From positions 124,001 through 188,000 of the forward strand of contig JAUSAZ010000097.1 in the NCBI GenBank assembly GCA_030652255.1: a stretch of DNA of 64,000 bases, in the 5' to 3' direction. Below, piece after piece: positions 1 through 13,682 of this stretch (its first letter is position 1; the number at the start of each line of letters is the position of its first letter). The stretch comes from Myxococcales bacterium. GTDB taxonomy: Bacteria > Myxococcota_A > Polyangia > Polyangiales > Ga0077539. A program made the translations under genes and the position numbers. The notes below the pieces were generated by a model, which saw only the letters and a program-made list of their open reading frames with translations, made no database searches and was not told the DNA's origin.

Positions 1-288
1 GGGGAGCACACGCTCACGGTGAGCCTGGAGTACCAGGGCAATGGGTTCGGGATCTTCTCGTACATCCGGGGCTACACGTTCCGCGCGCGCTCGGTGCAGG
101 CCTTCAGCGTGCCCGAGGGGCGCGCGCTCCGGTTGACGGTGGTGGGCTATGAGCGAGGCGGCGCGACCACCGCCGTCGAAGAGCGGCCGGCCATCCGGTA
201 CACGCAGCAGGTGATGACAATCCCCGAGGCGACGGCGTTGTCCAACGCCTCGGTGGGCGGAGCGGCGGCAGCGCCGGCGGCGCGATGA
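1..288 (+). CDS. C-terminal part of a secreted protein, paralogue of the next gene (5' truncated by window edge)
   Basis: The reading frame is open from the first base, so the gene begins outside the window; 95 codons remain. The visible part aligns residue for residue with the end of the following gene: both have an IRGYTF or MRGYRF block, a 'QAFSVPEG' or 'QSFSIPEG' block, a 'VVGYERGG' or 'VVGFEKGG' block and a closing '(I/V)RY(T/V)Q' segment. It is therefore a tandem paralogue, and by analogy an exported envelope protein. The tail is Ala-rich. Its stop overlaps ATGA (285-288), the first possible start of the next gene. I know no experimentally defined function for this family; such proteins sit beside TPR proteins in myxobacterial genomes. 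Confidence 0.75.
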   Translation, partial: GEHTLTVSLEYQGNGFGIFSYIRGYTFRARSVQAFSVPEGRALRLTVVGYERGGATTAVEERPAIRYTQQVMTIPEATALSNASVGGAAAAPAAR

Positions 289-314
289 GGCAGTCAGTGA
301 AGAGGCGAGACGGC

Positions 315-1070
315 ATGCGGCGGTTTACTGCGACGGTAATGGTTCTCGTGGCGATGGCGCCGGGCGGGGTGGCCCTCGCCCAGCAGCTCGACGGAGGGTC
401 CGAGCCCCCGTCGGCCATGATCACCGGGGCGCAGGATGGCGGCATGGTCGCGGCGCCGCAGGCCATCGAGGCGCCGGTCGGCGACGATGCGGGGGCGGTC
501 ACCGGCGAGCAGTACGTCGTGCGCCTGCGCAACCTCGAGCAGCGCATCAACGAGCTGAAAGAGGAGATCTTCCGCTCCAAGGCCCGGCTGTCGCTGCTGG
601 CCGAGTCGGTGCTTCAAAACGCCGTCGGCGGGTCGCGCGCGCAGATCGTCCACCAGAACGAGATGGGCGGCTCGTACCGCCTCGCGTCGGTGGTGTACTC
701 GCTCGACGGCGCGCCGATCTTCAACCGCGACGACGAGACCGGCGCCCTCGCCGACCGCCGGGAGTTCCAGGTCTACAACGGCCAGATCGGCTCCGGCGAC
801 CACAGCCTCGGCGTCAACCTCACGTACATCGGCGCGGGCCTGCCCTACATGCGCGGCTACCGCTTCTCGGTGCGCTCGACGCAGAGCTTCTCCATCCCCG
901 AGGGCAAGGCGATCCAGATCCGCGTGGTGGGCTTCGAGAAGGGCGGGCCCCTGGAGTCCCCCGAGAGCCGTCCCGCGGTGCGCTACGTCCAGCGGGTGAT
1001 CTCGCTGCGCGAGGCGGCCGAGGGCGCCGAGGCGACGCCGGCACCGACGGGCGGGGCCGGCACCCGATGA
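315..1070 (+). CDS. Secreted protein of unknown function, tandem paralogue of the upstream gene
   Basis: A 251-residue protein with a clear signal peptide (MRRFTATVMVLVAMAPGG, cleavage near ALAQQ). A short coiled coil lies at about residues 70-100 (NLEQRINELKEEIFRSKARL), followed by a beta-rich C-terminal domain shared with the upstream paralogue. ATG 315 is preferred over the overlapping ATG 285. AGAGG at 301-305 lies 9 nt before 315, and codons 285-314 use A-ending triplets (TCA, CGA) unlike real genes here. The stop overlaps the next start (ATGA at 1067). The coiled coil plus beta domain suggest a periplasmic structural partner of the TPR proteins encoded downstream; this is inference. Similar proteins are sometimes database-labelled 'dihydrolipoamide acetyltransferase', but no lipoyl or catalytic domain is visible. 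Confidence 0.8.
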   Translation: MRRFTATVMVLVAMAPGGVALAQQLDGGSEPPSAMITGAQDGGMVAAPQAIEAPVGDDAGAVTGEQYVVRLRNLEQRINELKEEIFRSKARLSLLAESVLQNAVGGSRAQIVHQNEMGGSYRLASVVYSLDGAPIFNRDDETGALADRREFQVYNGQIGSGDHSLGVNLTYIGAGLPYMRGYRFSVRSTQSFSIPEGKAIQIRVVGFEKGGPLESPESRPAVRYVQRVISLREAAEGAEATPAPTGGAGTR

Positions 1071-3541
1071 AGCGCCGGGGGCTTCGGGGTTGGGGTCTCT
1101 CCGCGGTGGTCGCGGCGCTCGTCGCGCCGTCGGCCGTGCACGCGCAAGACCTCGGGGAGGTCGGCTCGCAGCTCACGGTGCTCGAAGGGCAGACCGCGCA
1201 GATCGGTCAGCTCGCGTCGAGCGCGGCGAGCGGGACGGCCCGGCAGGGTCCGGACTACCAGGAGCGCTTCGCGGACGCCGAGCTGCTCTACCGCCTGCGC
1301 GACTACGCGCGCTCCGCGGTGCTCTTCACGGACATCGTGGAGAACTTCGCCAACACCCCGGCCTTCCCGCAGGGCTTGTACCTCCTCGGCGACGCGCTCT
1401 TCCAGGCGGGCGACCGCTACGGCGCGCGCACCCGCTTCCGGCAGGTGCTCGACCACGCGGGCGAGCCGGTGTTCCGTCCGTTCGTGCAGCGGGCGCTCGG
1501 CCGGCTCATCGAGATCGAGATCGCGCTCGGCGCCAACGACGAGGAGAGCAGCCGGCGGGTGGAAGACTACTTCCGCCGCCTCGGGCAGATCCCTCCATCG
1601 GAGATCGAGGCGCAGACGACGTACACGCGCGGGAAGTTCCTCTTCCTGCGCGGCACGCCCGACCTCGACGGGGCGCGCCAGGCCTTCGAGGCCATCCCCG
1701 CCGCGGCGCCGCTCTATCCCCAGGCGCGCTACTTCCTCGGCGCGATCCTCACGGTGCGCCAGCAGTACCCCGAGGCCATCGAGGCCTTCCAGCGCGTGAG
1801 CCAGCTCGAGGCCGACGGGCCCGACCAGCAGCGCGTGATCGACCTCTCGATCCTCGCCGTCGGGCGCCTGCAGGTCGAGCGCGAGAGCTTCGACGCGGCC
1901 ATCGAGAGCTACCAGCGCATCGGGCGCAACTCCGCGTACTTCGACCGCGCCCTCTTCGAGCAGGCCTGGGCGTACATCAAGCTCGGCGACGCCATCCGCG
2001 CCGAGCGCGCGCTCGAGATCCTCGCCATCTCCGCGCCCGACTCGCCGCTCATCCCCGAGGGCAAGCTGCTCTGGGGCAACCTGCTCCTGCGCACGGGGCG
2101 CTTCCAGCGGGCGCAGCAGGTGTTCCAGGAGGTGCGCGACCAGTTCGGGCCGGTGTACCAGCAGATCACCCAGGCGACCGACCGCGCCAACCCCGAGATC
2201 TACTTCCGCGAGCTCATCCGCTCCAACCTCCAGGTGTTCGACGCCAGCAGCTTCCTCCCGGCGCAGGCCCTCGCGTGGGTGCGCCAGGAGGGCGGCCTCG
2301 ATCACAGCATGCGGGTGATCTCCGACCTCAACACCTGCCGCACCTACGTCCGCGAGGCCACCGACCTCATCGACCGGCTCAACGCCGCCCTGCACGCGCC
2401 GTCCCGCTCGCACGTCTTCCAGGACCTCGGGCGCGCCCGGCAGCGGGTGTGGCAGGTGCTCAACCGCTCGGCGCAGCTCCGCGAGTCCGTCGCGCTCGCG
2501 CTCGACCGCAACGCCGACGCGGGCAACGTCGACCTCCAAGGGGTCATCAGCCAGCGCCGCGCGCTCGCCGCGCAGATCGGCCGGATGCCGGTCGACGACG
2601 ACGGGCTGCGCCGCCGCGACCGCCAGGCAGACAACGAGCTCCAGACGCTCTCGCAGACGCTCCAGCGCAACCAGCAGCGGGTCGACGGGCTCGAGGCGAT
2701 GGTGGTGGCCATCGAGCGCTACCTCGCCGACCCGGCGCACCAGAGCGTCCAGCTCGATCGCGCGACGCTCCAGGCCGAGCTCGTCCAGCAGCGGGCGTCG
2801 CTGCAGCAGTACCGCGACCGGGTGACCAACATCCGGCGGATGATCAGCGCGGCCCGCTCGCAGATCGGCCCGGGCGACCCCCGGTACGCGCACGACGTGG
2901 AGATGCGCGCACAGCTTCGCGACCTCGTGGGGCGCGAGGTGGCCGCCCTGCGCGCCGCCGGACGACTGCCCGCGGAGGCCGAGGGGCTGCTCGCGCGCAT
3001 CGACCGGCTCGACCAGGGCATCGAGGAGGCCGACGGGCGAATCAACACCCTCGTCGACCAGCGCATCGTGCTGATCACCAACCAGGTGCACGAGGAGGAA
3101 CAGCGCGTCGCGGGCTACCGTGACCGCCTCGGGGCCCTCGAGCGCGAGGCCGAAGACGTGGTGGGCAACCTCATCCAGCAGCAGTTTCGCCAGGTGCGGC
3201 TGCAGTTCTACCAGATCGTGATGCGCGCCGACCTCGGGCTCGTCGACGTCGCCTGGGAGGAGCGCGAGGAGCACAACAACCGCGCGCGCCTGCTCGCCGA
3301 GGAGCAGAACCGCGAGATCACAGCGCTCAACGACGAGTTCAGCGAGGTGGTCGAGGGCGCGTCCGCGACCGACGCCCAGCAGCTCACCGGCCAGCGCCCC
3401 AACGCCTCCGAGGCCGCGCCCGCGGCCACCCCCGCGCCGGGGCAGACCCCTGCGCCGACTCCTGACCCGGCCCCGGCGCCGGGTGTCACCCCGCCGCCTC
3501 CGACCGCCCCGCAAGGCGCGACGCAGGGGCCGGGTCAATGA
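1067..3541 (+). CDS. Exported TPR and coiled-coil protein
   Basis: The 824-residue product starts with a signal peptide (MKRRGLRGWGLSAVVAALV, cleavage near AVHAQ). Residues about 60-400 are helical repeats of TPR type, for example ELLYRLRDYARSAVLFTDIV, ARQAFEAIPAAAPLYPQARY and AFQRVSQLEADGPDQQ. Residues about 430-770 are long Arg/Gln/Leu-rich helices likely to form a coiled coil. The last 50 residues are a Pro/Ala-rich tail. No catalytic motif is visible. It starts on ATGA overlapping its upstream neighbour and ends on ATGA overlapping the giant TPR gene, so the three are translationally coupled. It is probably a periplasmic scaffold working with its neighbours. I cannot match it to one named Myxococcus Glt protein. 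Confidence 0.85.
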   Translation: MKRRGLRGWGLSAVVAALVAPSAVHAQDLGEVGSQLTVLEGQTAQIGQLASSAASGTARQGPDYQERFADAELLYRLRDYARSAVLFTDIVENFANTPAFPQGLYLLGDALFQAGDRYGARTRFRQVLDHAGEPVFRPFVQRALGRLIEIEIALGANDEESSRRVEDYFRRLGQIPPSEIEAQTTYTRGKFLFLRGTPDLDGARQAFEAIPAAAPLYPQARYFLGAILTVRQQYPEAIEAFQRVSQLEADGPDQQRVIDLSILAVGRLQVERESFDAAIESYQRIGRNSAYFDRALFEQAWAYIKLGDAIRAERALEILAISAPDSPLIPEGKLLWGNLLLRTGRFQRAQQVFQEVRDQFGPVYQQITQATDRANPEIYFRELIRSNLQVFDASSFLPAQALAWVRQEGGLDHSMRVISDLNTCRTYVREATDLIDRLNAALHAPSRSHVFQDLGRARQRVWQVLNRSAQLRESVALALDRNADAGNVDLQGVISQRRALAAQIGRMPVDDDGLRRRDRQADNELQTLSQTLQRNQQRVDGLEAMVVAIERYLADPAHQSVQLDRATLQAELVQQRASLQQYRDRVTNIRRMISAARSQIGPGDPRYAHDVEMRAQLRDLVGREVAALRAAGRLPAEAEGLLARIDRLDQGIEEADGRINTLVDQRIVLITNQVHEEEQRVAGYRDRLGALEREAEDVVGNLIQQQFRQVRLQFYQIVMRADLGLVDVAWEEREEHNNRARLLAEEQNREITALNDEFSEVVEGASATDAQQLTGQRPNASEAAPAATPAPGQTPAPTPDPAPAPGVTPPPPTAPQGATQGPGQ

Positions 3542-6500
3542 GGGCTTCCATGCGATGGCGGATCGGTCTCCTGTTGATCGTTGCGATGCTCGTGGGGCGC
3601 GTGCGCTCCGAGGCGCAGCCCCTGCCTTCCAGCCCCGACGCGGGGACCCCCCTCGCGGTGGGCTCCGACGCCGGCGCGATGTCGTCCGGGAGCCGCGCCG
3701 ACGACGCCTCGGTCGCGCCCCGCACGGGCGCTGACCCGGGCGCTGCGTCGAGCCTCACGGGCGGTCCCCCGCCGCAGTCGATCACCCCGCGCCCCAACCC
3801 CACCCCCGAGCAGATCGAGGCCCTCCGGCTGCTCGAGGCCGAGGTCGATGGCTTCCTCCAGCGGGGCCAAGGGTTCCGCAGCTCGGTCAACGGGCTCCTC
3901 ACCCGCGAGCACGACCGCCAGCTCGGCCGGCTCCGCGCGGGCTTCGACCGGCAGATCCAGGCCGAGCGCGCCGCCGAGGCCGAGGCCCGGCGCCACGCGA
4001 TCCAGGTGTTCGAGCGCTTCCTCGAGACCTACCCCGAGGACACCGAGCGCACGCCCGACGTGATGTTCCGCCTCGCGGAGCTCTACTACGACGAGTCGGC
4101 GTACGCGCGCCTCGCCGCGATGGACGTCGCCGACCACCGCCGCGAGGAGCTCCGCGCGCAGGGCCTCCCCGTCGACACGGTGCAAGACCCGCCGATCGAC
4201 TACCGCTGCTCGATCCTGCTGTACCGCCATGTGATCTCGCGCTTCGCGAGCTTCCGCATGAGCGACACGACGCACTACCTCCTCGGCTGGGTGCTGAAGG
4301 AGATGGGGCGCGAGGACGAGGCCATCGACGCCTACAAGGGCATGGTGTGCCCTGGGCGCTTCCGCTACCAGGCCGCGCAGGGGCTCGACCTCGCCGCGCC
4401 GCTCCAGCCGAGCGACCAGCCCGTCGTGTGTCCGCACCTCTTCGAGATGCTGCGCCCGCGGGCGCCCGAGCTCGTCTCGCCCGCTCCGCCGCCCGCCGTC
4501 GATCCGGACGCCGCGGTCGCTGCGGCGCCGCTCCCGGCGATGCCCGAGCTCGCCCCCAACCAGACGGTGCCCGTCCCCAGTGACTACGCCGCGTGCGAGC
4601 CGATGCGCGGGCCCAACAACCTCCCGTCCCGGTACGCCGGCGAGGTCTGGTACTACATCGGCGATCACCACTTCGACAACGCACGCGACGACGAGGGCAA
4701 CGCGCTCGCCATCGCGGCGTACCGCGCCTCGATGCGCGCGAGCCTGAAGCCCAGGCCCGTGGTGGCCAACCGCGCGCCCGCGGCCGCGATCCAGGGCGCC
4801 GGCGAGGGCGGCACGCAGATGCCGGCCGCCGCGAGGGCGCAGTTCGACCCGGCGATGGAGTACGGCGTCTTCTGGTCGAAGGCCCTCTACAAGGTCGGCT
4901 GGGCGTTCTTCCGGATGCAGAACGGGTACCCCGAGGCGCTGCGCAACTTCTCGCTGCTGCTCGACTACTACGACTACGTCGGCACCGAGGCCGCCACGCA
5001 GGGCAACCGCTCCGACACCATCAAGTGGATCGGCGTGATCTTCTCGGAGAGCGACTGGGGCGCGGGGCCCGGCGACGACGTCACCCGTTGTCAGGGGCTC
5101 GTCGACCAGGTCGCGCAGCCGCCCGCCGACGCGGCGCGGCCCTTCGACTGCGCGGGCATCCTGCGCATCACGTCGCCCGCCGACCCGGCGCAGATCGCCG
5201 CGGTCCGCGAGGGGCAGGGGGCGCAGCGCGCGGTGCCGGTGCCGGGCCGCCCGACGTACCTCCCGCAGGACCGCCCGTGGACCCCGGAGGCCTACCTCGA
5301 GCTCGCCAACGACTACTTCCAGCAGACGAAGTACTACGAGGCCATCACGCTCTACCGGCTCTTCCTGGCGCTGTACCCGCTGCACGAGCGGGCCCCGCGG
5401 GTGGCCGAGAGCATCGCCATCTCCTACGAGCGGCAGCGGCGCTTCGACCAGGCGATCGACGCCCGCGGCGGCCTCGGCCGCTACACCGAGGGCAGCGCCT
5501 GGTGGAACGCCAACAACAACCACCCCGACGCGCAGCGCTACGCCGACACGGTCGCGCGCAACTCGCTGCACGACACCGCCCTCCAGCACCACCAGGCGGC
5601 GGGGCAGGCCCGGCAGCGCGGCCGCGTGCTCGCGGTGCAGGCCGCCAGCCAGACCGGCGCCGAGCAGGCGCAGACGCAGGCCGACGCGCTCGCGAAGCTG
5701 CGCGAGGCGGACACCGAGTACCAGGCCGCGGTGCGGGCCTACACCCAGTTCATCGAGAACTACCCCAACGACGAGGCGGCGTATGAGTTCCGGTACAACC
5801 GGGCCGACGCGCTGTTCTGGTCGCGCAACTACCAGGAGGCGGCGCGCGCCTACTCCGACGTGCGCGAGTCCAACGAGAACGACCAGTTCCTCGTGGCCTC
5901 GGCGTACATGGCCGTGAAGTCGCAGGAGGCCTTCATCCGGCTCCAGGCGCAGCGGCGGGCCTTCGACCCGTGCCTCGCGATGCGCGCGGGCATCCCCGCG
6001 GCGGAGCTCACCGACGAGGCCGGCGCGGCGCTGCTCACCGCGGAGCAGATTACGACCTGCTCCGCGGCGCCCGTGACGGGCACCAGCGTGACCGAGCTCA
6101 ACATCCCCGACCCGGTGCGCCTGCTGATGGACGTCCGGATCGCGTTCTCCAACCGCGTTCCGGTCAACCTCGACACGGCCTCGGCGCTCGCCGAGGTGGT
6201 GTCCGTCGACCCCGAGCACCCGGAGAACAACCCGCCCTTCCGGCCGAAGTTCGCGTACCTCAACGCGCGGACGCTGCTGCGCTACGGCCACGCCGCCGAG
6301 GCCGAGACGCTCTACAACCAGATCCTCGAGGTCTACTGCGCAGACGCGACCGTCGCGGGTGCTGCCTTTGACGACCTGAACAACCTCTACGTGCTCACCG
6401 GGCGGTCGTCCGAGCGGGCGAACCTCGCGCGGCGGGAGCAGGCTCGAACCTGCGCGGCGGGCGAGGCCGCCGTGCGCACGACGCGCGGCGCGCAGGTCCA

Positions 6501-8025
6501 GGGGGCCATCACCGACGAGATCTTCATCGTCGCGATGAACCACTTCCGCGAGGCGGAGCGCGCGACCCCCGACCAGGCGGGCGCCCTCTACGAGCAGTCG
6601 GCGCGCGAGATGGAGGCCGCGGTGGCCGCCAACCGCACCCACGCCCAGGCCGCGCTGGCGACCTACTACCTGGCGCTCGCGTACGAGCGCACGGGTCGCT
6701 TCGACACGGCGACGCAGACCTACCAGCGCATCACCCGGGAGTTCAACAACACGCTGAACACCGCGGGCGAGGAGCTCACGGGCGAAGACCGCGCGCAGCG
6801 CATCAACATCCTCGAGGTGTCGAACTTCCGCGCCGCGGTGAACCTCGAGCGCATCTTCGACTTCGACAACTCGATCCGCTTCTACAACAACGTCGTGTCC
6901 GACGCGCGCTTCGCCACGGCGGCGGACCACGACAGCCACGTGCACGACTCGCTCGCGTCCATCGCGCTCATCAACACCAACCTCGGTCGCTGGGACGCCG
7001 CGCGCGCTGCATGGCTCGCGTTCGTCCCCCGCGCCGAGGCCGGGCGTGAGCGCGCGGAGGCGGAGTTCCGCGCCGCGGAGATGCCCTTCAAGGCGTCCAA
7101 CTGGGCGGTGGCCCTCACGTCCCTCCAGGACTACCTGCGCCGCACGCCCTCGACGCCGGACACGGCGCAGTTCCGGGTGCGGGCGCAGTACAACATCGCG
7201 CTCACCCACCGCAGCCTCGGCAGCGACCGCAACTACCGCGCGGCCCTCCGCGAGGTGGTGACGGTGTTCCGCGCGTCGGGCCAGCAGCCCGGCTCGCCCG
7301 CCGCCCAGTGGGCCGCCGAGGCGCTCTTCCGCGACCTCGACGACCAGGTCAACGAGTTCACGCGGGTGCAGTTCCAGCAGGGCGACGCGGCCGCGCTGCG
7401 CGCGCAGATCGATCGCTTCAAGACGCAGCTCCGGGCGATCGACGCCTCGGCGCGCGACGTCGTGAGCCTCCGCGGCGGCGAGTACTCCATCGGCGCGCTC
7501 ACCCGCCAGGGCGAGGCGCACGAGTACCTCGCCACGCAGGAGGCGCGCGTGGGCTCGCTCATCCAGCTCTCGGCCGCGCAGCAGGCGAACTTCCGCCGCG
7601 CGGAGGCGTCCATCGCGCAGCTGCGCGCGGCGGCCGACACCCTCGAGCGCGCGGGGCGCGACGAGCAGGCCCAGGCGCTGCGCGACCGCGCCGACGGGCT
7701 CCAGCAGCAGCTGGACGACCAGCGCACCAACTCGATCCAGCAGGTGCAGGAGAGCTTCGACCAGGAGGCCGAGGCCGAGCGCAAGCTGGCGATCATCAAC
7801 TACGGCACGGCGGTGTACACGTCGCGCACGCAGAACATCCCGACCCCGTATGCGGCGCGCGCGCTCGAGCATATGCGGCTCGACGAGAACCGTCCCCTCG
7901 TGGAGTCCGCGCTCAGCCAGCAGCGGGTGTTCGAGTACCGCAGCGGGATGTTCGACGGCGAGGCGCCCGGCGCCACCGTCACCCAGTCCACGCCGCTCGC
8001 GGGCCCCGGTCTCGTCAGCGAATGA
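3538..8025 (+). CDS. Giant periplasmic TPR protein, AgmU/GltD-like
   Basis: The 1495-residue product has a signal peptide (MRWRIGLLLIVAMLVG inside the first 30 residues), then a disordered Pro/Ala stretch. About 1200 residues of TPR-like helices follow, with clear repeats such as AITLYRLFLALYPLHERAPR, AVRAYTQFIENYPNDEAAYE and LASIALINTNLGRWDAARAA. A coiled coil lies near residues 1340-1420 and a conserved-looking tail reads EYRSGMFDGEAPG. Size, export and position directly before an AglT-like and a GltF-like gene match AgmU/GltD of the Myxococcus gliding (Glt) complex, where GltD is a periplasmic scaffold. The start may be ATG 3550, since GAGGG at 3540-3544 lies 5 nt before it; both starts give the same signal peptide. 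The assignment rests on synteny and architecture. Confidence 0.85.
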   Translation: MRASMRWRIGLLLIVAMLVGRVRSEAQPLPSSPDAGTPLAVGSDAGAMSSGSRADDASVAPRTGADPGAASSLTGGPPPQSITPRPNPTPEQIEALRLLEAEVDGFLQRGQGFRSSVNGLLTREHDRQLGRLRAGFDRQIQAERAAEAEARRHAIQVFERFLETYPEDTERTPDVMFRLAELYYDESAYARLAAMDVADHRREELRAQGLPVDTVQDPPIDYRCSILLYRHVISRFASFRMSDTTHYLLGWVLKEMGREDEAIDAYKGMVCPGRFRYQAAQGLDLAAPLQPSDQPVVCPHLFEMLRPRAPELVSPAPPPAVDPDAAVAAAPLPAMPELAPNQTVPVPSDYAACEPMRGPNNLPSRYAGEVWYYIGDHHFDNARDDEGNALAIAAYRASMRASLKPRPVVANRAPAAAIQGAGEGGTQMPAAARAQFDPAMEYGVFWSKALYKVGWAFFRMQNGYPEALRNFSLLLDYYDYVGTEAATQGNRSDTIKWIGVIFSESDWGAGPGDDVTRCQGLVDQVAQPPADAARPFDCAGILRITSPADPAQIAAVREGQGAQRAVPVPGRPTYLPQDRPWTPEAYLELANDYFQQTKYYEAITLYRLFLALYPLHERAPRVAESIAISYERQRRFDQAIDARGGLGRYTEGSAWWNANNNHPDAQRYADTVARNSLHDTALQHHQAAGQARQRGRVLAVQAASQTGAEQAQTQADALAKLREADTEYQAAVRAYTQFIENYPNDEAAYEFRYNRADALFWSRNYQEAARAYSDVRESNENDQFLVASAYMAVKSQEAFIRLQAQRRAFDPCLAMRAGIPAAELTDEAGAALLTAEQITTCSAAPVTGTSVTELNIPDPVRLLMDVRIAFSNRVPVNLDTASALAEVVSVDPEHPENNPPFRPKFAYLNARTLLRYGHAAEAETLYNQILEVYCADATVAGAAFDDLNNLYVLTGRSSERANLARREQARTCAAGEAAVRTTRGAQVQGAITDEIFIVAMNHFREAERATPDQAGALYEQSAREMEAAVAANRTHAQAALATYYLALAYERTGRFDTATQTYQRITREFNNTLNTAGEELTGEDRAQRINILEVSNFRAAVNLERIFDFDNSIRFYNNVVSDARFATAADHDSHVHDSLASIALINTNLGRWDAARAAWLAFVPRAEAGRERAEAEFRAAEMPFKASNWAVALTSLQDYLRRTPSTPDTAQFRVRAQYNIALTHRSLGSDRNYRAALREVVTVFRASGQQPGSPAAQWAAEALFRDLDDQVNEFTRVQFQQGDAAALRAQIDRFKTQLRAIDASARDVVSLRGGEYSIGALTRQGEAHEYLATQEARVGSLIQLSAAQQANFRRAEASIAQLRAAADTLERAGRDEQAQALRDRADGLQQQLDDQRTNSIQQVQESFDQEAEAERKLAIINYGTAVYTSRTQNIPTPYAARALEHMRLDENRPLVESALSQQRVFEYRSGMFDGEAPGATVTQSTPLAGPGLVSE

Positions 8026-8036
8026 TCAGAGGAACG

Positions 8037-9614
8037 ATGCGCCCCACTCCCTCCACCACCGCGGTCCTGGCGATCCTGCTGAGCCTGTCGGCCAACGCGT
8101 GCTCGTCCTCGAATGAGACGACGCCGCCCGCGCCGGCGACGAGCTCCGGGGGCGACAACACCGCGAGCAACCCCGACGGGGGGCTCCCCTCGGAGTCGAC
8201 CGCGCAGACCGCGCCGCCCCCGCCGACGCCCGCGGCGCCGGTGACCCCGACGCCGACGGAGACCCAGCCCTCCGCGCAGGGCACCGCGACGGCGACCTCC
8301 CGGGTGCAGCTCACGGGCGCCGCGCGGGCGTCCTTCGAGCAGGGCCTCCAGGCCGCGCGCGCGGGTCAGCTCGAGCAGGCCATGCAGGCCTTCCAGTCGG
8401 CCATGAGCGCCGAGCCCCGGGCCGCGCAGGCGGCCTACAACGCGGCCGTGGTGGCCGAGCGGCAGGGCAACGATGGCGCGGCCGACGGGCTCTACACCCG
8501 CGCGCTCGCGATGCAGGCGGACTACGACCCGGCGGTGGTCGGCCGGGCCCGCATGCTGGTGCGCCAGCGCCGCATCCCCGAGGCGGTGTCCTTCGCCGCC
8601 GCGGTGGCGCGCGCCAACCCCCGCAACGCCCTCATCCGCGCCGAGTACGCGCGGCTGCTGGTGCTCAACAACCGCGCCGCGGACGCCATCGAGGAGGCGC
8701 GGCAGGTGCTGCGCTTCGACGAGCGCAGCGTCGCAGCGCGTCTCGCGGTGGCCGAGGCGTACCGCGCGCAGGGTCGCCTCGACCTCGCGCTCTACATCGT
8801 CAACGACCTCATCAACGGCGCCGACCCCAACCACCAGAACAACGGCGCGGGCGCGAGCAACCCCGAGGTGCAGCACCTCCGCGGGCTGCTCCAGATCGAG
8901 GTCGAGCGCAACGTGCCGGCGGCCATCCAGTCGTTCCAGCGCGCGGTCGAGCTCTCGCCGGAGTTCGTCGAGGCGCGCAACAACCTCGGGGTGCAGTTTC
9001 TCAACGCGGGCAACTACGAGCAGGCGGTGGCCAACCTGAGCTCCGCGGTCGCGCTCGCACCGAGCTGGGCCAAGGCCCGGCTCAACCTCGGCGACGCCCT
9101 GCGCGCCACGCGGCAGTACGACCGGGCGATGCAGGAGTTCCAGCGGGTTCAGACGCTCGACAGCACGCTGCTCGAGGTCCACTACAACACCGGCCGGCTC
9201 TACGCCGACCAGGCGCGCGACGTGACCGGCACCGGGGTCGAGGAGCTTCAGCGCAAGGTCACCCTGCTCCAGCAGGCCCAGGCGGCCTTCACCCGCTTCC
9301 GCGACGCCCTCGGCGGCCAGTACGCCGCGCACCCGCGGCGCGAGGACGTCGAAGGGCAGCTCACCCGCATCCCGCAGGCCCTGGAGCGCGCCAACCGTGC
9401 GCTTCAGCGCGCGCAGGCGAACGCCCGCCGCACCGCAGCGACCCCTGCCGCGGCGACCCCCGCGGCGACCCCTGCTGCGGCGACCCCGGCCGCGGCGACC
9501 CCCGCTGCGGCAACCCCCGCTGCGGCGACGCCCGCTCCTGCGACGCCCGCTCCTGCGACGCCCGAAGGGGCTGCCGGCGCGACGCCGGGAGCGGCTGGCG
9601 GGGCGACCCAGTGA
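8037..9614 (+). CDS. TPR lipoprotein, AglT/GltE-like
   Basis: A 525-residue protein starting with a lipoprotein-like signal (hydrophobic AVLAILLSLSANAC, Cys near residue 22, not an ideal lipobox). A low-complexity Ser/Thr/Pro linker follows, then about eight TPRs: RAGQLEQAMQAFQSAMSAEP, AIQSFQRAVELSPEFVEARN, QAVANLSSAVALAPSWAKAR and others. The end is a repeated ATPAA tail. ATG 8037 is preferred over ATG 8022, which overlaps the previous stop. AGAGGA (8028-8033) would be the Shine-Dalgarno of 8037, and reading it as codons gives rare AGA GGA. Order and architecture match AglT/GltE, an outer-membrane TPR lipoprotein of the Glt machinery in Myxococcus. The function in this organism is inferred. 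Confidence 0.85.
   Translation: MRPTPSTTAVLAILLSLSANACSSSNETTPPAPATSSGGDNTASNPDGGLPSESTAQTAPPPPTPAAPVTPTPTETQPSAQGTATATSRVQLTGAARASFEQGLQAARAGQLEQAMQAFQSAMSAEPRAAQAAYNAAVVAERQGNDGAADGLYTRALAMQADYDPAVVGRARMLVRQRRIPEAVSFAAAVARANPRNALIRAEYARLLVLNNRAADAIEEARQVLRFDERSVAARLAVAEAYRAQGRLDLALYIVNDLINGADPNHQNNGAGASNPEVQHLRGLLQIEVERNVPAAIQSFQRAVELSPEFVEARNNLGVQFLNAGNYEQAVANLSSAVALAPSWAKARLNLGDALRATRQYDRAMQEFQRVQTLDSTLLEVHYNTGRLYADQARDVTGTGVEELQRKVTLLQQAQAAFTRFRDALGGQYAAHPRREDVEGQLTRIPQALERANRALQRAQANARRTAATPAAATPAATPAAATPAAATPAAATPAAATPAPATPAPATPEGAAGATPGAAGGATQ
9438..9562 (+). repeat. In-frame tandem repeat, mostly 15 bp, encoding ATPAA/ATPAP
   Basis: About eight copies of a unit resembling gcgacccccgctgcg (15 bp, one copy 12 bp) encode the Ala-Thr-Pro-rich tail of the TPR lipoprotein. 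Copy differences are single bases. The 12-bp copy keeps the reading frame, so length variation between strains would be tolerated. Confidence 0.85.
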
Positions 9615-9634
9615 TAGCCTTCCGAAGGATCCCG

Positions 9635-9967
9635 ATGCGTACTTCAACCCGGACGGTGATGGCGGTCGCGGCGGCGCTCTGCGCGGCGACCTTGTGGGGC
9701 GGCGAGGCAGCAGCCCAGGTGCCGCCCGCGGACCCGACGGCGACCCCGACGCCCGCGACGCCCAACCAGGAGGTCGCCGCGACGGTGCGCACGGAGAACG
9801 GCCGCCGGGTGTACGTGGCGAGCACCACCATCGAGGTGCGGGGGGAGATCCAGCGTCCCTACGCGTTCTCGGTTTCGGGCCGATCAAGCCTTGGCTACTC
9901 GTACTTCGAGGCGCCCATCCACTTCATCCGCGAGATCGTGGACGCGGTGCGGCGGGCGCCCTTCTGA
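9635..9967 (+). CDS. Small exported protein, GltF-like
   Basis: A 110-residue protein with a signal peptide (MRTSTRTVMAVAAALCAATL, cleavage near GEAAAQ). A Pro/Thr linker follows, then a short beta-rich domain reading VYVASTTIEVRGEIQRPYAF and a tail YFEAPIHFIREIVDAVRRAP. ATG 9635 is chosen over GTG 9611, which overlaps the previous stop. GAAGGA at 9623-9628 is well placed for 9635, and the intervening codons ATA and CGA are atypical here. Its place between the AglT-like and PglI-like genes, and its small exported form, match GltF in the Myxococcus glt order D-E-F-G. Sequence identity to GltF itself could not be checked. Confidence 0.75.
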   Translation: MRTSTRTVMAVAAALCAATLWGGEAAAQVPPADPTATPTPATPNQEVAATVRTENGRRVYVASTTIEVRGEIQRPYAFSVSGRSSLGYSYFEAPIHFIREIVDAVRRAPF

Positions 9968-9971
9968 CCCC

Positions 9972-10002
9972 CTGACGACCGCGGGGAACCTTCCGCTACG
10001 GT
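9972..10002 (+). promoter_or_regulatory. Possible sigma70-like promoter for the PglI/GltG-like gene
   Basis: CTGACG (9972-9977) and TACGGT (9997-10002) are separated by 19 bp. Predicted transcription starts near 10009, leaving a leader of about 35 nt that contains ACGGAG before ATG 10044. TACGGT also occurs as the -10 of the ssb and PP2C promoters in this window. Confidence 0.35.
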
Positions 10003-10043
10003 CGCGGTCAGAGTCGGTGATAGATGTTGAACGTACGGAGGCG

Positions 10044-11540
10044 ATGACGATGGCCCAGCAGACACAACCCCCGCGCGGAGGAAAGCCCGGCGCGATGACC
10101 CAGGCGATGGCCGCGCAGAAGGTGGCCACCGGCCCGAAGGTGCTGCGCATCGGCGTGATGCAGGGCACCCGGATGTCCGAGGAGCGGATCATCCGCGACC
10201 GGGCGTCGGTCAGCGTGGGCACCACCGAGCGCAACACCTTCACCGTGGCGTCGTCGGAGCTCCCTTCGAGCTTCGAGCTCTTCACAATGGCGGGCGGTCA
10301 GTACCAGCTCAACTTCACCGACAAGATGGAGGGGCAGCTCGCGCTGGCGGAGGGCATCAAGAAGCTCGCCGACCTGCGCAGCAACCCGAGCACGAAGCGC
10401 GGCCCGACGGGCTGGCAGGTGCCGCTGGCGGAGACCTCGCGCGGCAAGATCCAGCTGGGCGGGGTGATGTTCCTGTTCCAGTTCGTGGTGCCGCCGCCGC
10501 CGCAGCCGAAGCCCCAGCTCCCCGCGGCCATCCGCGCCGGCTGGGTCAAGAACATCGACTGGACCTACAACGCCTGCTTCTCGGCCTTCCTCGTCCTCGC
10601 CATCGCGAGCATCGCGTACGTCGAGTACGTGTACGACCCCATCGTCGACGACGAGCTCTCCCTCGACGACTCGCGCCTCGTGCGCCTGCTCGCGACGCCG
10701 CCCCCGGTCGATGAGCCCGAGCCCACGCCCGAGGCCGAGGCCAACCCGGCCGACACCGCGGCCAACGCCCCCGCGGCCGCGGCGCCGACCGAGCACCGGC
10801 CCGCCCCGTCCGCGGCCGAGCGCGAGGCCAGCCGCACCGCCGCCGCCGAGCGCCGCAGCGAGGCCGCCACCGCCGCCGCCAACCGCGCGGTCGACGCGGC
10901 CCTCTCGGCCCTCAACAACAGCGCCGAGTTCGCGGCCCTCACCGGCGCCAACGACACCGGCCGCGGCAGCGCCCGCGACGCCCTCGGCCAGGGCGGCCTC
11001 ATGGCCGGCACCGAGCGCGACCTCGCCAACGTCGGCGGCATCTCCGCCGCCAGCGGCCAGGTGGGCGTGCGCCGCGGGGGCATCGCCTCGGCGGGCGGCG
11101 GCGGCCTCGGCGGTCGCGGCCTCGGCCAGGGCGGCGCGGTCGCCTCGAGCGGCAACGCCATCGGCAGCGGCCAGGAGATCGTGCGCGAGCGCGTCATCCG
11201 CGGCAACGCCGACATCGGCAGCGGCGACTCGACCGGCGGCGAAGGCCAGGTCGACGCCAACGCGGTCGCGCGCATCATCCGCGGCCAGATCGGCGGCATC
11301 CGGGGCTGCTACGAGCGCGAGCTCCGCAACAACCCCACCCTCGCGGGTCGCCTCGAGATGAACTTCACCATCGGCGCCAGCGGGCGCATCACCCGCATCT
11401 CCGCGGGCGGCCCGCTCGCCTCCTCGTCGCCGGCCGTCGGGTCGTGCGTGAGCTCGCGCCTCCGCGGCCTGGTGTTCCCGACCCCGGAGGGTGGCAGCGT
11501 GGAGTTCTCCTTCCCGTTCACCTTCACGCCCGGCAGCTGA
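10044..11540 (+). CDS. FHA-like / transmembrane / TonB-C protein, PglI/GltG-like (AgmX/PglI C-terminal domain)
   Basis: A 498-residue protein. Residues about 28-165 form a cytoplasmic beta-rich, FHA-like module (KVLRIGVMQG, then SVSVGTTERNTF and GKIQLGGVMFLFQFVVPPPP). One transmembrane helix (about 185-205, CFSAFLVLAIASIAYVEYVY) follows. Then come a long Ala/Glu-rich and Gly-rich periplasmic spacer and a C-terminal TonB-like domain with the AgmX/PglI signature (IRGQIGGIRGCYERELRNNP ... FTIGASGRITRI). This matches GltG/PglI, an inner-membrane protein of the Glt gliding machinery whose TonB-like end reaches across the periplasm. ATG 10044 or ATG 10050 can serve as start; GGAG lies at 10037-10040. 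It has its own candidate promoter and is followed by a strong terminator, so the cluster ends here. Confidence 0.88.
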   Translation: MTMAQQTQPPRGGKPGAMTQAMAAQKVATGPKVLRIGVMQGTRMSEERIIRDRASVSVGTTERNTFTVASSELPSSFELFTMAGGQYQLNFTDKMEGQLALAEGIKKLADLRSNPSTKRGPTGWQVPLAETSRGKIQLGGVMFLFQFVVPPPPQPKPQLPAAIRAGWVKNIDWTYNACFSAFLVLAIASIAYVEYVYDPIVDDELSLDDSRLVRLLATPPPVDEPEPTPEAEANPADTAANAPAAAAPTEHRPAPSAAEREASRTAAAERRSEAATAAANRAVDAALSALNNSAEFAALTGANDTGRGSARDALGQGGLMAGTERDLANVGGISAASGQVGVRRGGIASAGGGGLGGRGLGQGGAVASSGNAIGSGQEIVRERVIRGNADIGSGDSTGGEGQVDANAVARIIRGQIGGIRGCYERELRNNPTLAGRLEMNFTIGASGRITRISAGGPLASSSPAVGSCVSSRLRGLVFPTPEGGSVEFSFPFTFTPGS

Positions 11541-11564: not shown

Positions 11565-11613
11565 ACGCCCCGGAGGGAGAGGTCGAGGCCTCTCTCCCGG
11601 GGCGTTTCTCTTT
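11565..11613 (+). terminator. Rho-independent terminator of the envelope cluster
   Basis: A 17-bp stem with one mismatch: the left arm starts ACGCCCCGG at 11565 and the right arm ends CCGGGGCGT near 11605, with a small TCGA-centred loop. It is followed by TTTCTCTTT and sits 25 bp after the stop of the PglI-like gene. Confidence 0.85.
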
Positions 11614-12935: not shown

Positions 12936-13682
12936 ATGGCGCGCGGACGACTCCACGCAACCCTCACCTACGGCGGCCTCGCGGTCCTCTCGGTGGCGTC
13001 CATGGGCTTCGTCGGCGGGCGGCGCCGCGGGTGCCCCGCGGGGATGATCGCCGTCGCGGGGGAGTACTGCATCGACCGCTACGAGGCCTCGCTCGTCGAG
13101 CTCCTGCCCCGCGGGCGCACCCGGCCGTGGAGCCCCTTCGTGACGCCTCCTCCGCGGCGGCGGATGCGGGCCGTCGCGCGGGCGAGGGCCTTCCCCCAGG
13201 GGTACATCTCGCAGGTGCAGGCCCGGGCGGCGTGCCGCGCGGCGGGGCGGCGGCTCTGCGCCGAGCCGGAGTGGGTGCGCGCCTGCAAGGGGCCCACGCC
13301 GAGCGCGTGGCCTTACGGGCCCAGGTATGTTCCGCGGCGGTGCAACGACGGGCGCGAGGGGCCCGTGCGGCGCATCTTCGGCATGGGCGACGTCTTCCAC
13401 GAGACGCAGATGAACGACCCGCGGCTCAACCAGCTGCCGGGCACGCTCGCCCGCACCGGGGCGCACGCGCGCTGCCGCAACCGCTACGGGGTCTTCGACA
13501 TGGTGGGCAACCTCCACGAGTGGGTCGAGGCGACCACCCGCGGCGGGCACGGGGTGTTTCGCGGCGGGTACTACGTCGACGTGCACGTGAACGGCTCGGG
13601 CTGCGACTACGCCACCCGCGCGCACAACCCGAGCTACCACGACTACTCCATCGGCTTCCGCTGCTGCGCCGACCTGCGCTGA
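12936..13682 (+). CDS. Exported formylglycine-generating-enzyme-like (SUMF1/FGE-sulfatase) domain protein
   Basis: A 248-residue protein with an N-terminal signal or anchor (TLTYGGLAVLSVASMGFVGG). The FGE-sulfatase fold follows: entry motif GMIAVAGEYCIDRYEASL, middle motif AACRAAGRRLCAEPEWVRAC, then YGVFDMVGNLHEWVEAT, VFRGGYYV and the terminal SIGFRCC. These are hallmark blocks of the C-type-lectin-like SUMF1 superfamily. The paired catalytic Cys of true formylglycine-generating enzymes is not clearly present; Cys positions here look structural. A non-enzymatic binding or structural role is therefore as likely as sulfatase activation, and no sulfatase gene is in the window. TAGGGT lies 9 nt upstream of the ATG and no Shine-Dalgarno is seen, so the transcript may be nearly leaderless. 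Confidence 0.85.
   Translation: MARGRLHATLTYGGLAVLSVASMGFVGGRRRGCPAGMIAVAGEYCIDRYEASLVELLPRGRTRPWSPFVTPPPRRRMRAVARARAFPQGYISQVQARAACRAAGRRLCAEPEWVRACKGPTPSAWPYGPRYVPRRCNDGREGPVRRIFGMGDVFHETQMNDPRLNQLPGTLARTGAHARCRNRYGVFDMVGNLHEWVEATTRGGHGVFRGGYYVDVHVNGSGCDYATRAHNPSYHDYSIGFRCCADLR

Follow-up and report, generated by a model that had tools for sequence, protein, structure and literature searches.

Trans-envelope machines of the Agl/Glt type are known from Myxococcus xanthus, which encodes the Glt gliding complex (clusters G1/G2 with the AglRQS motor), the Nfs sporulation complex (G3) and a further cluster, G4. A conserved core, a proposed non-gliding role and the G4 and M2 clusters were published by Luciano et al. 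2011 (PMC3169522), together with a Group B core complex of gamma-proteobacteria and Geobacter that comprises gltC-D-E-G and aglRQS. The gltD homologue of G4 is MXAN_1922, and polar disruption of this gene and deletion of MXAN_3004 (M2) each left motility normal (PMC3169522). The genes mglA and mglB are MXAN_1925 and MXAN_1926 (PMC3441718), and in the gliding system MglA acts on AglR and GltJ (PMC12288465).

The DNA analysed here, which we call the window, is a stretch of 64,000 nucleotides (C65:124001-188000) from the 9.37 Mb genome of a Myxococcales bacterium. It opens inside an operon of seven co-directional forward-strand genes, A to G, the last ending at 11540 (Table 1); gene A starts approximately 350-500 bp upstream of the window. 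Five junctions have 4-bp start/stop overlaps (285/288, 1067/1070, 3538/3541, 8022/8025 and 9611/9614). The order of GltD-, GltE-, GltF- and GltG-like genes proposed in a first-pass annotation of this sequence holds, with profile matches for E and G, a giant TPR protein in D and a small exported protein in F. So does the FHA-TM-TonB-C build given there for G: in the structural model residues 36-151 are FHA-like (best FHA chains E ~1.6e-3), a TM helix spans residues 176-199 and the C-terminal part (residues 390-499) is TonB-like (TonB chains E ~2e-3), the tail matching NF033768 (AgmX/PglI tail; 3e-22, 78.5 bits, cut-off 40) and the N-terminus having no Pfam match. G is presumed to be the motor coupler. 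The annotation had also listed GltA-C and GltH-J as not seen, which is correct for gltA/B/H/I/J in the operon and its flanks but not for GltC, of which gene C is a homologue; the terminator that it placed after G is present as a stem, though a weak one.

Table 1 Features of the operon and of the candidate motor (window coordinates unless a contig is given).
Feature	Position	Strand	Description
Gene A, 3' part	1..288	+	Exported; tandem paralogue of B; A1-profile match C65:123719-124273
Gene B	285..1070	+	Exported; N-terminal helix and beta-sandwich; defining, mostly single-copy gene of the operon family
Gene C	1067..3541	+	GltC-like periplasmic TPR protein; NF033756 1.5e-18, 67 bits
Gene D	3538..8025	+	Giant periplasmic protein of 1495 aa, GltD/AgmU-like; TPR matches
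Gene E	8022..9614	+	GltE-like TPR lipoprotein; NF033758 8e-26, 91 bits; LSANAC lipobox by inspection
Gene F	9611..9967	+	GltF-like small exported protein
F-G junction	9968..10043	+	~76 bp; site of ExbB-ExbD-ExbD or X in relatives; empty in the window
Gene G	10044..11540	+	GltG-like: FHA-fold / TM / TonB-C-type tail; NF033760 9e-45, 153 bits
Terminator-like stem	11588..11603	+	5 pairs, T-rich tail; weak
M2	C119:57593-59427		Complete motor: ExbB and two ExbD

Genes A and B have no match to any family, and Pfam searches of B, F and G were uninformative. The AlphaFold model of B (pLDDT 88) consists of a helix (residues 10-48) followed by 8 strands, with no PDB or fold relatives at E<=1e-3. The B family occurs in 138 of 189 sampled Myxococcota genomes, nearly always as one copy; the second copy that makes the A/B pair is found in G001, G004, G005 and G006, and G008 and the g4 genomes have one copy only. 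The upstream secreted paralogues were earlier read as new parts, yet B is phylum-wide and only the B-to-A duplication is recent. Upstream of the operon, and divergent from it, lie an ECF sigma gene and a gene that by inspection is a candidate anti-sigma factor of zinc-finger type (together about -2606 to -863 relative to the window), an arrangement kept order-wide, and then unrelated genes; no glt or motor genes are found directly upstream, so there is no ordinary gliding locus there. A search for an ECF-type promoter motif between the sigma gene and the operon gave 5 loose hits against 2.6 expected and 3 strict hits against 3.2, with no shared motif. In much of the order (L083, L085, L089, L100, L101 and L103) G is followed by a gene for a small, conserved exported protein (..CLNDKL.QID..., ...ANQCVGEE) that is absent from the window, where an exported protein at 12936-13682 resembles, by inspection only, the formylglycine-generating (SUMF1) type. 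Elsewhere in the genome there are orphan paralogues without the rest of the operon, one of D (G000:C88:29900-34546; 42-47% identity, near transposase-like genes, with similar copies in G007, G010 and G012) and one of G (G000:C115:15838-17280; 5e-186), as well as some 25 AgmX/PglI-tail proteins (including on C35, C96 and C223), among them some in tandem and one fused to a MuiA-like protein.

When named genomes were scanned, the B family was located in Myxococcus dinghuensis, which served as stand-in for M. xanthus. There, B-C-D-E-F-G directly follow mglB and mglA, which encode an MglB-like protein (Robl_LC7 2e-20; NF052242 2e-25, below cut-off) and an MglA-like small GTPase. Because the MXAN numbering fits the order mglB-mglA-B-C-D, synteny and locus tags identify this cluster with M. 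xanthus G4. Among the Myxococcus sequences compared (G4, G5, nfs and the surroundings of gltC, without the gltD-G cluster), the mglBA-linked cluster gives the best match for all seven window proteins, at ~25-46% identity: D matches G4 D at 1.7e-35 versus 6.9e-10 for nfs D, E matches G4 E best, and F matches G4 F at 2.9e-5, or 1.1e-19 with the family profile. Thus, by sequence comparison, the window operon is the orthologue of G4 and a sister of Glt and Nfs. It has all the protein types of M. xanthus G4, the order B-C-D-E-F-G and no motor at the locus, and it differs in its tandem A/B duplication and in having a divergent ECF sigma/anti-sigma pair instead of mglBA. Among the 106 loci surveyed (those with poor gene calling, such as L079 and L090, were read by homology), mglBA lies upstream in 16 and an ECF sigma gene in 36; since the linkage varies, we did not use it to define G4. 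The operon is flanked by ECF sigma rather than mglBA in the window's order, and mglA is unlinked (C66). The mglBA linkage in other lineages nevertheless suggests that the complex was ancestrally linked in function to polarity control by MglA, given the action of MglA on AglR and GltJ in gliding.

With M. xanthus Glt the operon shares homologues of C, D, E, F and G and a motor encoded elsewhere; it differs in that gltA/B/K and gltH-I-J are absent from operon and flanks and in its separate C clade. Comparison with the Glt profiles gave significant matches for C, E and G, so homology stands, but the NCBIfam equivalog cut-offs for GltC, GltE and GltG are missed (C 67 vs 450, E 91 vs 225, G 153 vs 650 bits), which argues for family resemblance rather than orthology to gliding Glt; M. 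dinghuensis gltC scores 1059 bits on the GltC model. The same genome contains a better glt-type cluster (C25:88002-108845) that encodes gltC-D-E-F-G together with two further TPR proteins, one of them giant (at least 3378 aa), GltI-like and the only one of its type found, with GltC at 309 vs 67 bits and GltG at 302 vs 153 bits for the window. In the GltC tree (its row gltClike_L120, probably a wrong ORF, was ignored) a split supported at 100/99 places the window, its relatives and Myxococcus G4 C on one side and C25 with Myxococcus gltC on the other, where nfsC and G5 C also lie. The Nfs complex resembles the window operon in its single operon, its A/B-C-D-E-F-G order and the absence of a motor from the locus; as an nfs orthologue, however, the operon was rejected, for its A and B have no similarity to Nfs A/B, nfsH is missing and C falls outside the nfsC clade.

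Many relatives of the operon carry a motor of their own. Eleven loci whose contig includes G, and in addition L204 and L215, have ExbB-ExbD-ExbD placed between F and G, and these embedded motors come from families f16, f19, f24, f28, f34 and f36 and from mgl-linked operons; this spread over several families indicates that the ancestral operon probably contained the motor. The embedded-motor form of other Myxococcota has the content of the Group B core complex; the window has its C, D, E and G homologues, lacks the in-operon motor and adds A/B and F. At the same F-G site, 16 loci of the window's order have a degenerate ExbB-like gene, X, with no ExbD left. X aligns over its whole length with the motor ExbB profile (hhalign E 8.7e-14, 192 columns), and both invariant channel threonines (T128 and T163) are missing in every one of the 16 copies. 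The F-G gap is ~55-91 bp in the window, G001, G004, G005 and G006, X being gone from the window's genus. As judged from these sequences, the motor at this site degenerated within the window's order and was then lost in its genus. X, which may have become a non-motor subunit, is a candidate dead stator.

The earlier statement that no AglRQS motor is seen is accurate for contig C65, which has no MotA/ExbB gene, but not for the genome: C119:54172-59427 encodes two AglRQS-like motors, M1 and M2, each ExbB-ExbD-ExbD, divergent and back to back, an arrangement kept in G001, G005, G006, G007, G023 and G217. M2 retains the channel threonines and the ExbD aspartates. In a concatenated RQS tree the order's M2 forms with Myxococcus M2 a group whose sister is the mgl-linked embedded motors (99/100), inside the embedded clade, and M1 falls with the Myxococcus motor taken as AglRQS (99/100), less resolved in a second tree; some branches in the motor trees are long and the deeper nodes weakly supported. 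Lengths and ExbD domain positions, compared with Table 1 of PMC3169522, make it likely that the Myxococcus motors L284 and L285 are AglRQS and M2, respectively, although L285 (Asp 28) agrees better than L284 (Asp 29) with the published Asp-28 of AglQ if that position is taken by itself. An operon without an embedded motor is also found in G113, with a displaced motor of the M2 clade on C88.

We consider it probable that the operon codes for an envelope-spanning transducer belonging to an Agl/Glt-type machine and that M2 drives this machine in trans, a drive made probable by the nesting of M2 among the embedded motors. M2, with its ExbB and two ExbD subunits, would use proton-motive force and engage G at its TM helix. 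The FHA-like domain of G would face the cytoplasm, and the TonB-like tail would pass force on to C and D, the periplasmic TPR proteins, to the lipoprotein E, and to F, A and B, which would lie near the outer membrane. This route is modelled on AglR acting through GltG and NfsG. Some observations count against the M2-G4 pairing. In published two-hybrid tests it was AglR, not MXAN_3003, that paired with GltG and NfsG, G of G4 not being among the reported tests; G143 has a motorless operon and, as the only motor found, one of AglRQS type, with no displaced M2-clade motor; and the flanks in the window's order are without mglBA.

A drive by the AglRQS-type M1, common to the complex and the glt cluster, with M2 serving something else, is to be weighed, and we think it unlikely. 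A motor common to Glt and Nfs is documented for AglRQS in M. xanthus, the divergent M1/M2 pair on C119 could be co-expressed, and G143 indicates that AglRQS may serve some G4 complexes. It is M2, however, and not M1 that nests among the motors embedded in window-type operons, and M2 is kept in every genome of the order examined, which are the window's own and the six that keep the back-to-back arrangement.

Alternatively, the Glt-like proteins might have stayed on as a static, motor-independent envelope scaffold after motor loss, as the missing motor gene at the locus and on C65 and the X copies without channel threonines would allow. We regard this as doubtful, since an intact motor of the fitting clade persists in the genome, G retains both its TM helix and its TonB-like tail, and the operon is otherwise intact, with B 88% identical in a congener. 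Least probable is that the operon is the organism's ordinary gliding locus split from its remaining parts, a reading that its gltD-G-like protein types and order would suit but that was rejected because C25 scores higher for GltC and GltG, has the giant GltI-like protein and, unlike the window, joins gltC in the C tree.

The view of the locus as an ancestral core working without gliding, offered in the first-pass annotation, is not supported by these comparisons. Relatives embed ExbB-ExbD-ExbD, and a search of the genome for glt and motor genes returned an M2-type motor, an AglRQS-type motor and a separate glt-like cluster; with the last two in the same genome, "without gliding" does not follow. 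As to what an M2-driven G4 machine would do, the operon encodes no outer-membrane barrel of the GltA/B/H type, which makes it less likely that the machine grips a surface than that it shifts or places a component of the envelope. Since M. xanthus also moves normally when G4 or M2 is disrupted, the machine probably serves the envelope or transport at the surface rather than gliding.

The window operon itself is a further example of the known G4-type cluster, and the new part is the history of its motor; a literature search, with most subscription journals outside its scope, found no paper on a G4-M2 pairing, the mglBA linkage, embedded Myxococcota motors or the remnant X. More tentatively, and with slightly less than even confidence, we propose a third phylum-wide, MglA-linked motor machine beside Glt and Nfs, in which the motor moved from the operon to a site back to back with the gliding motor and the old site keeps a channel-dead X, perhaps a non-motor subunit, or nothing, as in the window. 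For G4 and M2, described from M. xanthus in 2011, the pairing proposed here, taken with the mglBA linkage and the wide occurrence in the phylum, means that both are probably parts of one machine. The stepwise way in which the embedded motor was lost amounts to a natural experiment on separating a proton-motive-force stator from its transducer.
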